Below, one piece after another: positions 20,685 to 24,918 of a stretch of 24,918 bases of DNA. Made by a program: the position numbers and the translations under genes. The stretch's first letter is position 1; each line of letters starts with the position of its first letter. Source of the DNA: a virus. Location: positions 1 through 24,918 of IMG/VR virus record IMGVR_UViG_3300042922_000218, one strand, 5' to 3'. The notes beneath the pieces were generated by a model. The model worked only from the letters and a program-made list of their open reading frames with translations, had not been told where the DNA came from and did no database searches.

Positions 20685-23600
20685 TCACCACCCCTTATGA
20701 CGCTGATAATCAGATGCGCCGCCCATAAAATTTTTAAAATCAACTTGGGCAACTGGCGTTTTGCCAAGTTCGGTTATTAAAATATTATTTTGCTGTTGGG
20801 TAGCCTTAAGAAGCTGGGTTAGCAATTGTACAAGCGCCGAGTTATCGCTATTCACCGTCACACTAGGCGAATGTTGGGCAACCGCCGTCTGACTCACATC
20901 CGGCACGTACCGATTCATCAGGCTATCGAACGCGCCACCAACGCCCGCGGCGAATCCTGGTAAGCCAAGCGACTTGCCTAACCGTTCAGTGTCGGCATTT
21001 TTCAGTACGCTGGCTCCTGCAGACAGCGGCACGATGGTCGGTTCATTGACCAGGTACGTACCGAACTTCTTATCATGGACAAACTCACGTCCTGCTTCAC
21101 CGACAAGCGCGATCTCGTCATGCGGCAAGTTTTTAACACCCGCAGCGTGAGTAGCATCGTATAATTTTTGATTGTGGACTTTAACATATAGATTTTTTGA
21201 TATATCGTCCGTCAGATTATAATACTGCTTTGGCAGATTAGTTTTGACATTGACATTTTTATTAACGTCTTTACCTAAACCTTTATACGTGCCGTCGGTA
21301 TGCGTGTGCGAGTCGACTTTCTTGTCGATGTCTTTGCGCAGCTCTTTGTTCATATCGAGAGCGCCGTCGGTACCTTTTTTAATTCTGCCATTAACGCCTT
21401 CAAGTTTATCAATTTGGCCTTGAATCTGTTTGCGACCTTCTTGATATTGTTCGTTCATTGACGTGTTCATTTTTCCAGATGCTGCTAATTTATCGTGTTC
21501 CTTATCCATCGCTGCAAGCTTATCTTTTTGTTTTTCAACTTGCTGCCCGAGGGTTAACATACCTTTTTTACCTTCGTCGTTAATTCCCACTGTTTTTAGC
21601 AAGGTATCCGCATATTTTTTTCTTAACTCATCCGCATCGTTAAGGTGCTTCTTATCATTATTGATTTTTTTCTGATCTTCATCATTTTGCTTCATTTGCG
21701 TACCTAACTGGGCATGTAAAGACTCACCCCCGTTAGCCAGCAATTGATTAATATCTCGACGACTGTGAAACTGTCTTTTTGTCGCTTCTACTCCATGCTC
21801 ATCCAAATAATTTGATATCTTAGAAAGGTCATTTTCATGTGCCTTTCCCACATTTAACTGATCTTGGAGATTTTTAATTTCTCGTTTGTATTTCGCTTCG
21901 TTTCCTTCAGCGTTGGTTTTTGCAATCTCAAGTTCGCGTAGTTGTTGTTCAAGCAATGCCGCATTATATTTTTTCGCTTTATCGGTACTTTCAGCGATTC
22001 GATTACCTTGCTTCGTAATCGCGTCTGTTGCGCCCGGCACCTTTTTAACAAGATCACCATTTAAGCTAACCATTTCGTCAAGCTCTTTATTGCTCAAACT
22101 AGACTTGTTTTGTAGCTTATCCGCTTCATCTTTTAACCGTTTGATCTCGTCAGCACTTGTTGCTTTTTTTAACCGAGCTTGTATGTCTACAAAACGCCCG
22201 AATTCCTTTGACGTTAACGTTGACATCGACTTTAATTCGTCGTATCGGTCAATCATTGGCGTCAATTGTGCACGCTGCTGATCGAGCGCGTCAGCCGCAG
22301 CTGTCGATGTATCCGCTAACTTCGTAAAGTGATGATACAAACCGTAAGCAGCCAGTCCAGCAGCGCCAATGCCAAGCGTTACAAGCCCAACAGGACTAGT
22401 TAATCCGCCAATCACGGATGTTAATAGCCCAGTGCCCTTTGTCAGCGTACCGACTTTACCAGCAGAGCTAGCAGCACCCGCTCCAATATCTGCAACGGAT
22501 TCAGCAGCGCGTGCGGCTTTAACTTCTCCAAATGCCTTTACTACTGTGTTGACACCAACCGCTAAATTGCTAAACTGCTTAATACCGCCGCCAATTGCCA
22601 TTGTCATAGCGCCCATTGCGGTACCAACGCCAAGCGTTGCCGTGGTTCCGAGTGCCATTTTACCAATCCATTGCTGAGTAGCCGGATCAAGCTTATTAAA
22701 CCAGTCAACGACGCCCTGGACGTTCCTAGTCAATCCTCGCAGTGTTGGCAGGAGACTGTTGCCAATAGTGATGCCCGCAGTTTCAAGCGAGCCACGTAAC
22801 TGCTCCAAGGTGCCTTTCATATTGTTCAACTTTTGACGAGCAACATCGGCCGCCGAAACCTTACCCATGCTTGTAGCCATGGCATCGACGCCCTTAGCAC
22901 CTTCACGATACAAGACGGTCGCGCCACGGACAGCGTCAGAGCCAAACATGACGCCTAAAGCATTTTGACGTTGCTCATTCGTCAGATTCTTCATATGGCC
23001 TTTTAGAAGCTGTGCAATCTGCGACATGTCTTTAAGGTCGCCGTTATTGTCATAAAACGCCGAGTGCATCGCACCGGAGCCCTCGGTCAAGTCCTTAAAG
23101 GCTTTCTGTTGTGCTTTTGATCCTTCCTTGGCGCCGGACATTTTAGTCGATAACTCGGTTAGCTGTTTAATCAGGTCGCCTTGGTTTTTTGACAACGGTT
23201 TAACCCCGTGACTGCTTAACACTTCCGCTGCTTTACTGGCGTCAAAGGTCATTAATCCAAGTTTCTCAAACTGTGCTGCTGCTTTATCTGTTTGCGGCTC
23301 CAACCGCATCAGCATCGTTTTTAGCGATGTTCCGGCGTCTGAACCCTTCAGACCATTTTGAGCAAATACCGCCAATGCTGTGGCGGTATCCTTAAAGGTC
23401 AACCCAACGCCTGCAGCTACCGCCGAGGACATGGAAAGAGCAAATTTCATTTCGCCAACATCCGTAGCCGATGCGTTCGCAGCGCCCGCTAAGATATCGG
23501 CGGCCTGTGCAACAGATAGCCCGTCCTTTTTAAATGCATTCAACGCAGTTGACGCGATCTCCGCCGCATCCTTCAAGTCTAGCGATCCGGCCGTTGCAAG

Positions 23601-24338
23601 GTTAAGTGCGCCGGACAAGCCGCCGTGGATAATGTCTTTTACCGACACACCGGCTTTAACCAACTCTTCTTCAGCCTGTGCAGCTTGTGTCGCACTAAAG
23701 GCGGTTTTAGAGCCTTGCACAATAGCAAGATTTTCGAGTTCCTTGCTATACTTACGAACCTCATCCGGAGCCATGACCGACTTAACGCCAGACATTTGCG
23801 ATTCAAAGTCCATCGCCGACTTAGCAGCAACGCCAAGACCCGCACCGACTGCAACGGTAGCTGTTCCGAAGCCCTGCATCATACTGCGCCCGGTTGCGGA
23901 TACTTTATCACCTGTTGCTCGGAACTTGTCCGCCTGAGAAGCTGCATGACCCCAGAAGGTCGATTGCTCGCGAATTTTACTATTTACCGCGTTCAATTGA
24001 GACTCGGTGTTTTTCATTGCTGCAGCACTGCTATTGTAGCGACGTGCGAGATTATCTACGGTCTTTGCGTCTACATCCTTCGCACTTGCAGCACGGTCAT
24101 ACTCAGCTTTTAAATTGGCAACACGGGCACGCTGAAGCTCCAGCACGCTTGTAAGACGGCGAGAGTTGGCTTGCATGCCTGCTAACGTCCTGTCGTAGCC
24201 ATCAACGCCTGCAGAAGCGACCTTAAACTCACTGTTAACCCCGCGAATCTTACGGGTAATTTCCGTCATAGACTTAGAAAAATCAGCCTCCTGCAAAGAG
24301 AGACTGATTTTAAGTGCGCCTATTTCTTGGTCTGCCAT
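20685..24338 (-). CDS. tmp: Tail tape measure protein
   Basis: A 1217-aa tape measure, the protein that sets tail length and is ejected with the DNA. The N-terminal 140 residues are coiled coil (NSEFKVASAGVDGYDRTL). The conserved phage tape-measure core follows (about 140-560), with AKSAMDFESQMSGVKSVM, FSATQAAQAEEELVKAGVS, and a GLKGSDAGTSLKTMLMRL segment. Hydrophobic Gly/Ala stretches at about 560-690 may cross the membrane. Then there is a long charged coil (700-1000) and a C-terminal part with HDEIALVGEAGREFVHDK. The start at ATG 24338 follows AAGGAGGTGGGATT. The usual rule of about 0.15 nm per residue gives a tail of roughly 180 nm. No peptidase or lysozyme domain is visible in it. Confidence 0.95.
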   Translation of the reverse strand: MADQEIGALKISLSLQEADFSKSMTEITRKIRGVNSEFKVASAGVDGYDRTLAGMQANSRRLTSVLELQRARVANLKAEYDRAASAKDVDAKTVDNLARRYNSSAAAMKNTESQLNAVNSKIREQSTFWGHAASQADKFRATGDKVSATGRSMMQGFGTATVAVGAGLGVAAKSAMDFESQMSGVKSVMAPDEVRKYSKELENLAIVQGSKTAFSATQAAQAEEELVKAGVSVKDIIHGGLSGALNLATAGSLDLKDAAEIASTALNAFKKDGLSVAQAADILAGAANASATDVGEMKFALSMSSAVAAGVGLTFKDTATALAVFAQNGLKGSDAGTSLKTMLMRLEPQTDKAAAQFEKLGLMTFDASKAAEVLSSHGVKPLSKNQGDLIKQLTELSTKMSGAKEGSKAQQKAFKDLTEGSGAMHSAFYDNNGDLKDMSQIAQLLKGHMKNLTNEQRQNALGVMFGSDAVRGATVLYREGAKGVDAMATSMGKVSAADVARQKLNNMKGTLEQLRGSLETAGITIGNSLLPTLRGLTRNVQGVVDWFNKLDPATQQWIGKMALGTTATLGVGTAMGAMTMAIGGGIKQFSNLAVGVNTVVKAFGEVKAARAAESVADIGAGAASSAGKVGTLTKGTGLLTSVIGGLTSPVGLVTLGIGAAGLAAYGLYHHFTKLADTSTAAADALDQQRAQLTPMIDRYDELKSMSTLTSKEFGRFVDIQARLKKATSADEIKRLKDEADKLQNKSSLSNKELDEMVSLNGDLVKKVPGATDAITKQGNRIAESTDKAKKYNAALLEQQLRELEIAKTNAEGNEAKYKREIKNLQDQLNVGKAHENDLSKISNYLDEHGVEATKRQFHSRRDINQLLANGGESLHAQLGTQMKQNDEDQKKINNDKKHLNDADELRKKYADTLLKTVGINDEGKKGMLTLGQQVEKQKDKLAAMDKEHDKLAASGKMNTSMNEQYQEGRKQIQGQIDKLEGVNGRIKKGTDGALDMNKELRKDIDKKVDSHTHTDGTYKGLGKDVNKNVNVKTNLPKQYYNLTDDISKNLYVKVHNQKLYDATHAAGVKNLPHDEIALVGEAGREFVHDKKFGTYLVNEPTIVPLSAGASVLKNADTERLGKSLGLPGFAAGVGGAFDSLMNRYVPDVSQTAVAQHSPSVTVNSDNSALVQLLTQLLKATQQQNNILITELGKTPVAQVDFKNFMGGASDYQRHKGW

Positions 24339-24350
24339 AATCCCACCTCC

Positions 24351-24808
24351 TTACAATCCTGGTATTTGGTCGATGTAGACTTTTTCCGGCTTGTTCATAA
24401 TAAAAAACATGCGGGCATCGATCTCATTGATCTCTTTGTCCGTCATGCCTTGTTTCCGCAATGCGAGATAGAGTTCTTTCATTCGTTCGAACCTATCCCG
24501 CGGCGTTAGTTTTTTTCTGTATCGTCTTCAACTTCAGGCAAAACACCTTGAACCGTTTTAAAAAATTCAAGATATTTTTTATTCCATTCAAGCACGTCAA
24601 TCCCTTGGATAAATTGTTCCGGTGTGAATTGACCATGAAAAATATCTGTACAAATAAACTCGACAAACTCTTGTGTTTCTTCGCGTTTTTCCAGCGTTGC
24701 AAATTCAATCCGCGTCTGCATCTCAGTTAAATTCATCAATGCAGCGAGATAAACTTTACCGGATGAAAATTTCTTTTCCTTACCATCTATAGTTAATGTG
24801 ACTTCCAA
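24351..24808 (-). CDS. Tail assembly chaperone GT (-1 frameshift fusion)
   Basis: A 152-aa fusion formed if ribosomes slip back one base at A-AAA-AAC (24509-24515). The first 100 codons are those of gpG (24506-24808). The extra 52 codons run in the -1 frame from CTA 24509 to TAA 24351 and contain MKELYLALRKQGMTD and EINEIDARMFFIMN, the usual helical layout of T-domains that bind the tape measure. The start of the tape measure gene follows 13 bases later. In lambda-like phages G and GT are needed in a fixed ratio for tail assembly. Frameshifting is inferred from the site and the conserved gene order, not shown. The T frame has no good start of its own apart from an ATG at 24482 without a strong site. 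Confidence 0.78.
24506..24808 (-). CDS. Tail assembly chaperone G
   Basis: A 100-aa helical protein between the major tail protein and tape measure genes, where the G chaperone always lies. The start is a TTG at 24808 (six bases after GAGGTGA), unusual for the window; no in-frame ATG lies nearby. It has MEVTLTIDGKEKKF, then a helical body (VYLAALMNLTEMQTRIEFAT) and an acidic end with PEVEDDTEKN, followed by the TAA at 24506-24508. The stop directly follows the slippery heptamer, so most ribosomes make G and a few make GT. The function, to keep the tape measure and tube subunits ready for assembly, comes from the lambda G/T precedent. Confidence 0.85.
   Translation of the reverse strand: MEVTLTIDGKEKKFSSGKVYLAALMNLTEMQTRIEFATLEKREETQEFVEFICTDIFHGQFTPEQFIQGIDVLEWNKKYLEFFKTVQGVLPEVEDDTEKN
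24509..24515 (-). promoter_or_regulatory. Programmed -1 frameshift site (A-AAA-AAC)
   Basis: Minus-strand heptamer AAAAAAC in frame as A-AAA-AAC, right before the G stop codon TAA. It fits X-XXY-YYZ, and the -1 frame is open for 52 codons into a chaperone-like T domain. A G/C-rich segment (CCGCGGGATAGG) begins ten bases later and may help as structure. Confidence 0.8.
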
Positions 24809-24837
24809 TGTAAATCACCTCATATTCAAATTAAAAA

Positions 24838-24859
24838 AGACAGGCGATTAGACCTGTCT
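24838..24859 (-). terminator. Intra-operon terminator after the major tail protein gene
   Basis: On the minus strand AGACAGG pairs with CCTGTCT around an eight-base loop and is followed by a T run (complement of 24833-24838). It lies between the abundant tail-tube protein gene and the low-abundance chaperone gene. Confidence 0.82.
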
Positions 24860-24866
24860 TCACTCA

Positions 24867-24918
24867 TTAGACTGTCGGTGCGGTTCCGTCATACACCTTG
24901 TCAAACCACTTAGCGAGA
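24867..24918 (-). CDS. C-terminal end of the probable major tail protein (partial)
   Basis: Only the last 16 residues and the TAA stop (24867-24869) are inside the window, reading LAKWFDKVYDGTAPTV in the frame that stays open to the edge. The identification as the tail-tube (major tail) protein rests on its place directly before the G/GT chaperones and the terminator behind it, not on sequence. KWFDKVYDG is a typical kind of ending for such proteins in phages of lactic acid bacteria. Confidence in the gene is good and in the name moderate. Confidence 0.6.
   Translation of the reverse strand, partial: LAKWFDKVYDGTAPTV

Follow-up and report, generated by a model that had tools for sequence, protein, structure and literature searches.

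Does the tail chaperone gene G of this virus end in a programmed −1 frameshift that joins it to a second, overlapping frame, T? We analysed a virus record of 24,918 bases (the window), which carries the junction on its minus strand. Excerpts of two papers (PMC5009743, PMC4493119) present frameshifting of the G/GT kind as a widely conserved trait of long-tailed phages. As judged from sequence, the locus is very probably (about 0.95) a G/GT tail-assembly-chaperone cassette in which a programmed −1 frameshift makes gpGT. Its features are listed below, each with the evidence for it.

20685..24338, minus strand: tape measure protein gene, 1217 aa (TIGR01760, phrog_1533, PF10145)
24351..24509, minus strand: −1-frame T region of 52 codons and a stop codon (open frame, conservation, dN/dS)
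24463..24501, minus strand: stem-loop, proposed frameshift stimulator (minimum free energy, MFE, fold in 4 of 4 sequences; covariation)
24502..24508, minus strand: 7-nt spacer including the G stop codon TAA (sequence)
24509..24515, minus strand: slippery heptamer A_AAA_AAC, in frame and abutting TAA (kept in the relatives L002, L003 and L005)
24506..24808, minus strand: G, the gene of a 100-residue tail assembly chaperone (matches to NF047360 and PF23857)
24815..24820, minus strand: Shine-Dalgarno sequence of G, AGGTGA, 6 nt upstream of the TTG start (core shared by L002, L003 and L005)
24829..24861, minus strand: intrinsic-terminator-like hairpin and U-tract, after the major tail protein gene and ahead of G (sequence, scored)

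The G/T cassette of the window

Gene G matched NF047360 'phage tail assembly chaperone G' with 65.0 bits (cut-off 25) and PF23857 Phage_TAC_19 with 55.3 bits (cut-off 27), matches by which its product is assigned to the PVL-type tail assembly chaperones. Matches to TIGR01760 (164.4 bits), phrog_1533 (E 1e-139) and PF10145 identify the 1217-residue neighbour as a tape measure protein of the TP901 type. Of the major tail protein gene the window has a 3′ fragment only, and its identity is presumed from the same position in annotated phages. The order of a lambda-type cassette is present, with a G-type chaperone gene and T followed by the tape measure gene. The PHROGs label for G, phrog_187 'head-tail adaptor', was rejected, as it is contradicted by the gene order. 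A phmmer search of G against the PDB gave no credible match (best E 0.11), and an AlphaFold2 model of G built from five sequences had a mean pLDDT of 47.9 and a pTM of 0.32, values too low for the model to be used. An Rfam scan of 24200-24918 returned a sub-threshold mir-322 match alone, which was taken as chance.

The zero frame of G ends in GAA AAA AAC TAA. An earlier reading of the window from its letters alone (the sequence-only reading) had placed the heptamer in frame directly before this stop codon, which was borne out: A_AAA_AAC occupies 24515-24509 on the minus strand and is an in-frame X_XXY_YYZ heptamer inside the G/T overlap. The same holds for its statement of a 52-codon open −1 frame that reaches the tape measure gene. 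This frame overlaps the end of G, encodes LTPRDRFERMKELYLALRKQGMTDKEINEIDARMFFIMNKPEKVYIDQIPGL* from CTA to the TAA at 24351, and ends 12 nt before the tape measure ATG at 24338. T alone matched no curated family above cut-off.

The nearest relatives are a prophage of Sporolactobacillus kofuensis, L005, whose G protein is 74% identical to that of the window, and two IMG/VR fragments, L002 and L003, with 98% and 96% identity in G. Because the S. kofuensis prophage is among them, the host is probably Sporolactobacillus or something near it. Scans of viral contigs with DNA patterns returned the two already known and six unrelated chance matches, with no further close relative. No near-identical DNA was found in the phage collection, and tblastn of window G and T against that collection gave no match; with the G of another locus, L004, as query, phi105, Mimir87, SpP, NIIg3.2 and others were matched. 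Among the titles returned by a literature search on Sporolactobacillus and prophages, none concerned its phages.

T is conserved as a protein. Over 46 codons (NG86), dN/dS was 0.009/0.316 against L002, 0.028/0.163 against L003 and 0.115/0.607 against L005, values by which T evolves as protein and under purifying selection. The first 16 codons of T, which contain the stem, show no substitution between the window and either L002 or L003, and the 19 nt GAAAAAAACTAACGCCGCG are unchanged in L005 despite the 74% identity of the G protein. An EIDEMD..F or YID-like pattern recurs in T across much of the family.

The sequence-only reading had also noted a TTG start for G and seen in it a second level of control. 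The TTG is real and is shared by L002 and L005, but the close relative L003 has ATG behind the same Shine-Dalgarno core, and the second level of control is therefore not supported. Across 102 loci of the family, a Shine-Dalgarno-guided guess at the start of G gave ATG in 88, GTG in 8 and TTG in 6.

Slippery sites across the family

Junctions for comparison came from the loci of genome searches, from annotated phages and from viral contigs. NF047360 was found in 57 of 397 genomes in an order-level search, in 48 of 398 (47 above cut-off) in a class-level search and in 3 of 15 in a genus-level search. Left out were L058 (its stretch ended before any G stop), L099 (a stop inside the G match), L010/L114 and further repeat fetches of one place, G731 (below the family cut-off), L076 (G truncated at the contig end, though T is in −1 and G_GGA_AAG stands ahead of the stop) and loci whose G had a string ratio above 0.9 to one already kept.

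T was open for at least 40 codons in the −1 frame at 95 of 100 non-redundant loci, and in the +1 frame at 6 of 100. Within the discovery set, 57 of the 60 non-redundant junctions with T in −1 had an in-frame XXXYYYZ heptamer in the G/T overlap, where the heptamer frequency in more upstream parts of these G genes would predict 3.8 (in-frame 63/688, out-of-frame 15/1376, upstream in-frame 35/6053). All 35 junctions of a second set had one, as did 92 of the 95 loci with T in −1 in the full set. The heptamer nearest the stop at these 92 junctions was AAAAAAG (37), GGGAAAC (13), GGGAAAG (13), AAAAAAC (8), CCCAAAC (8), AAAAAAA (4), TTTTTTG (4), AAAGGGG (2), or CCCTTTG, AAACCCT or GGGAAAA (1 each). 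The heptamer of the window does differ from that of lambda, as had been pointed out, but A_AAA_AAC is not unusual, because it stands at 8 of the 92 family junctions and has already been reported for HCTV-2 g-t.

Relatives with an intact T and no slippery site, named beforehand as evidence against frameshifting, were rare: the canonical heptamer is absent from 3 of 95 junctions and present in 92. The three are L039, L057 and phi105 (L078), where T is in −1 and G_GGG_GAG lies at or near the G stop; on this sequence only a P-site slip would be expected to re-pair. At L004 (3001-3480) CCC TAA A is followed by a homologous T (..HFFFELINEKKKVYIDEIW) in +1, and this version of the cassette may use a forward shift. 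In Bacillus phage SPP1 a +1 shift at CCCUAA is described for another gene, the tail tube gene (PMC6316719, in excerpt). T is in +1 in L125 too, with no evident site.

Two observations concern the annotation and content of these loci. L054, L113 and L119 are without T; between G and the tape measure gene they have a small zinc-ribbon ORF (CxxC-CxxC), whose product may resemble the Com protein of Mu. The public records of phi105 (PHI105_00070/00075), L079 and L081 list G and T as two hypothetical proteins and have no CDS that joins them by a frameshift.

A stem-loop behind the heptamer and the probable route to gpGT

The first account of this locus omits a stem-loop that starts 7 nt past the heptamer and consists of 13 bp with one bulged U and a 12-nt loop (5′ arm 24501-24489, 3′ arm 24476-24463). 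When 96-101 nt across the junction were folded, the same hairpin was the MFE fold in the window, L002, L003 and L005, with folding z-scores in the four sequences of −3.03, −2.07, −3.85 and −3.78. Between the window group and L005, three of the 13 pairs are altered on both sides (G-U to C-G, G-C to A-U and C-G to U-A), ten are invariant and none is broken; slid control pairings showed no both-side change. When six substitutions were placed at random among the 26 paired sites, every pair survived in 230 of 300,000 trials, and 7 of 500 column shuffles equalled the covariation score of the stem, in a sample of four sequences that amounts in effect to two lineages. Two of the compensations alter T residues (E to K and L to R); therefore, the pairing was kept while the protein changed. 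As a sequence feature the stem-loop of this cassette is newly seen and well supported, and it probably stimulates frameshifting.

We infer from the sequence the slippage itself, its rate and the roles of its products. Most ribosomes would stop at TAA and yield gpG (100 aa). The stem-loop would hold a minority with Lys-tRNA on AAA and Asn-tRNA on AAC; these would slip back one base on A_AAA_AAC, re-read the C as part of CTA and add 52 residues, giving a small amount of gpGT (152 aa). By analogy with lambda, many gpG and few gpGT would form a coat around the tape measure protein, with the T domain recruiting the major tail protein. The lambda G/GT-type −1 shift of the sequence-only reading is supported by the family of G, the gene order and the conserved T domain, and further by the family-wide in-frame heptamers and the covarying downstream stem-loop.

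An identical fusion would result if RNA polymerase inserted one extra A in the run of seven A that precedes the C, such that G and T were read as one frame. We consider such transcriptional slippage quite improbable: the covarying stem 7 nt downstream fits ribosomal frameshifting, and relatives use G_GGA_AAC, C_CCA_AAC and G_GGA_AAG without a long homopolymer. Nor is the A7 run alone distinctive, because the minus strand of the window has nine runs of that length or longer. A slightly smaller chance still attaches to T being a separate small protein, reached by reinitiation or from its own start, which is how the phi105, Mimir87 and NIIg3.2 records annotate it (a separate CDS). The window T does contain an ATG 10 codons in (ERMKELY), but this codon is ATA in L005, and within the first 15 codons past the slip site ATG is missing from 75 of 92 T frames, and all three of ATG, GTG and TTG from 53 of 92. 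Reinitiation, moreover, needs no in-frame heptamer, yet 92 of 95 junctions have one. A chance overlap without function is scarcely credible, since the family-wide heptamers, the conserved T, the purifying selection and the covarying stem contradict it, even though one 52-codon open frame is not rare by itself.

We compared heptamer types by the folding z-score over the 70 nt past the heptamer. An excerpt of PMC5009743 reports that in E. coli A_AAA_AAC slips far less readily than A_AAA_AAG; the host of the window may differ. AAC-ending heptamers had a downstream stem more commonly than others. In the discovery set, where the association was noticed, the median z was −3.08 for C-ended heptamers (n=23) and −0.31 for the others (n=34; P 3.5e-5). 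It was then tested on the class-level second set, which holds only six C-ended members (median z −1.67, against 0.34 for 29 others; P 0.018). With one mean per similarity cluster, such clustering being the sole treatment of kinship, z was −2.34 (21, C-ended) versus −0.36 (38; P 8.5e-5). Not fitting the association are 13 of 29 C-ended junctions, which fall short of z −2, and 12 of 63 others, which reach it. Strong stems are seen behind C-ended heptamers in L042, L049, L050, L064 and the window (24463-24515), for example, and G-ended heptamers are mostly without one. Where the heptamer is G_GGA_AAC, the 5′ arm is the G-rich end of G (GGGGGAG), which pairs with CTTCCC.

A possible control of transcript dosage, and known systems

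The terminator-like hairpin before G has the sequence GAAGACAGG-TCTAAT-CGCCTGTCTTTTTT. A hairpin with a T-tract occurred in the 130 nt before G at 74 of 102 loci, compared with 5 of 510 mononucleotide shuffles. By position, the last 100 nt before G held one at 71 of 100 loci and the other upstream bins at 0-12 of 99 or 100, with a second peak (24 of 99) 500-599 nt past the G start. The position of the pre-G hairpins is shared, and their sequences are unrelated between loci. On this pattern the hairpin probably causes partial termination and lowers the G and tape measure transcripts. As a general feature it was not found in the titles and abstract openings of the literature searched; an excerpt on SPP1 describes late clusters delimited by stem-loops of terminator-like kind (PMC6316719). 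The odds seem to us even that the family has two exchangeable designs, AAC with a strong near stem and AAG usually without, which together with a pre-G hairpin lowering transcripts would make a two-layer control of stoichiometry.

The arrangement of the cassette is well known, and the window is an ordinary, well-supported case of it. Phage lambda has the same order of major tail protein, G, T in −1 and tape measure, and an in-frame XXXYYYZ near the end of G (PMC5009743, in excerpt); the window differs in having A_AAA_AAC instead of G_GGA_AAG, touching the stop, and a strong downstream stem. Lactococcus phage TP901-1 likewise has a −1 frameshift at the end of gpG (PMC4493119, in excerpt), and its type of tape measure is that of the window; normal tails are not made by its gpG and gpT mutants according to the same excerpt. 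Its heptamer is GGGAAAG, unlike that of the window, and its frameshift is proven experimentally, whereas that of the window is predicted from the DNA. Bacillus phage SPP1 has a putative −1 G/GT shift in 17.5/17.5* (PMC6316719, in excerpt), but at UUUUUUC, and its tail tube gene has a further shift, of +1, at CCCUAA. The g-t genes of the haloarchaeal virus HCTV-2 share A_AAA_AAC (PMC5009743, in excerpt), in a virus with an archaeal host. Bacillus phage phi105 (PHI105_00070/00075) is alike in position and T type, with a T ending in YIDQILG, and unlike in its G_GGG_GAG before the stop in place of a canonical heptamer.

G/GT junctions serve as the training set of the predictor PRFect (PMC10885494, in excerpt). 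As a comparative example of G/GT frameshifting the window is clean, and it contributes a stem that covaries and is probably stimulatory. Should the family-wide link between heptamer and stem hold, it tells which features a predictor of frameshifts ought to demand at AAC-type sites in Bacilli. The terminator-like hairpin ahead of G would be a layer, seemingly a general one, in the dosage control of late genes.
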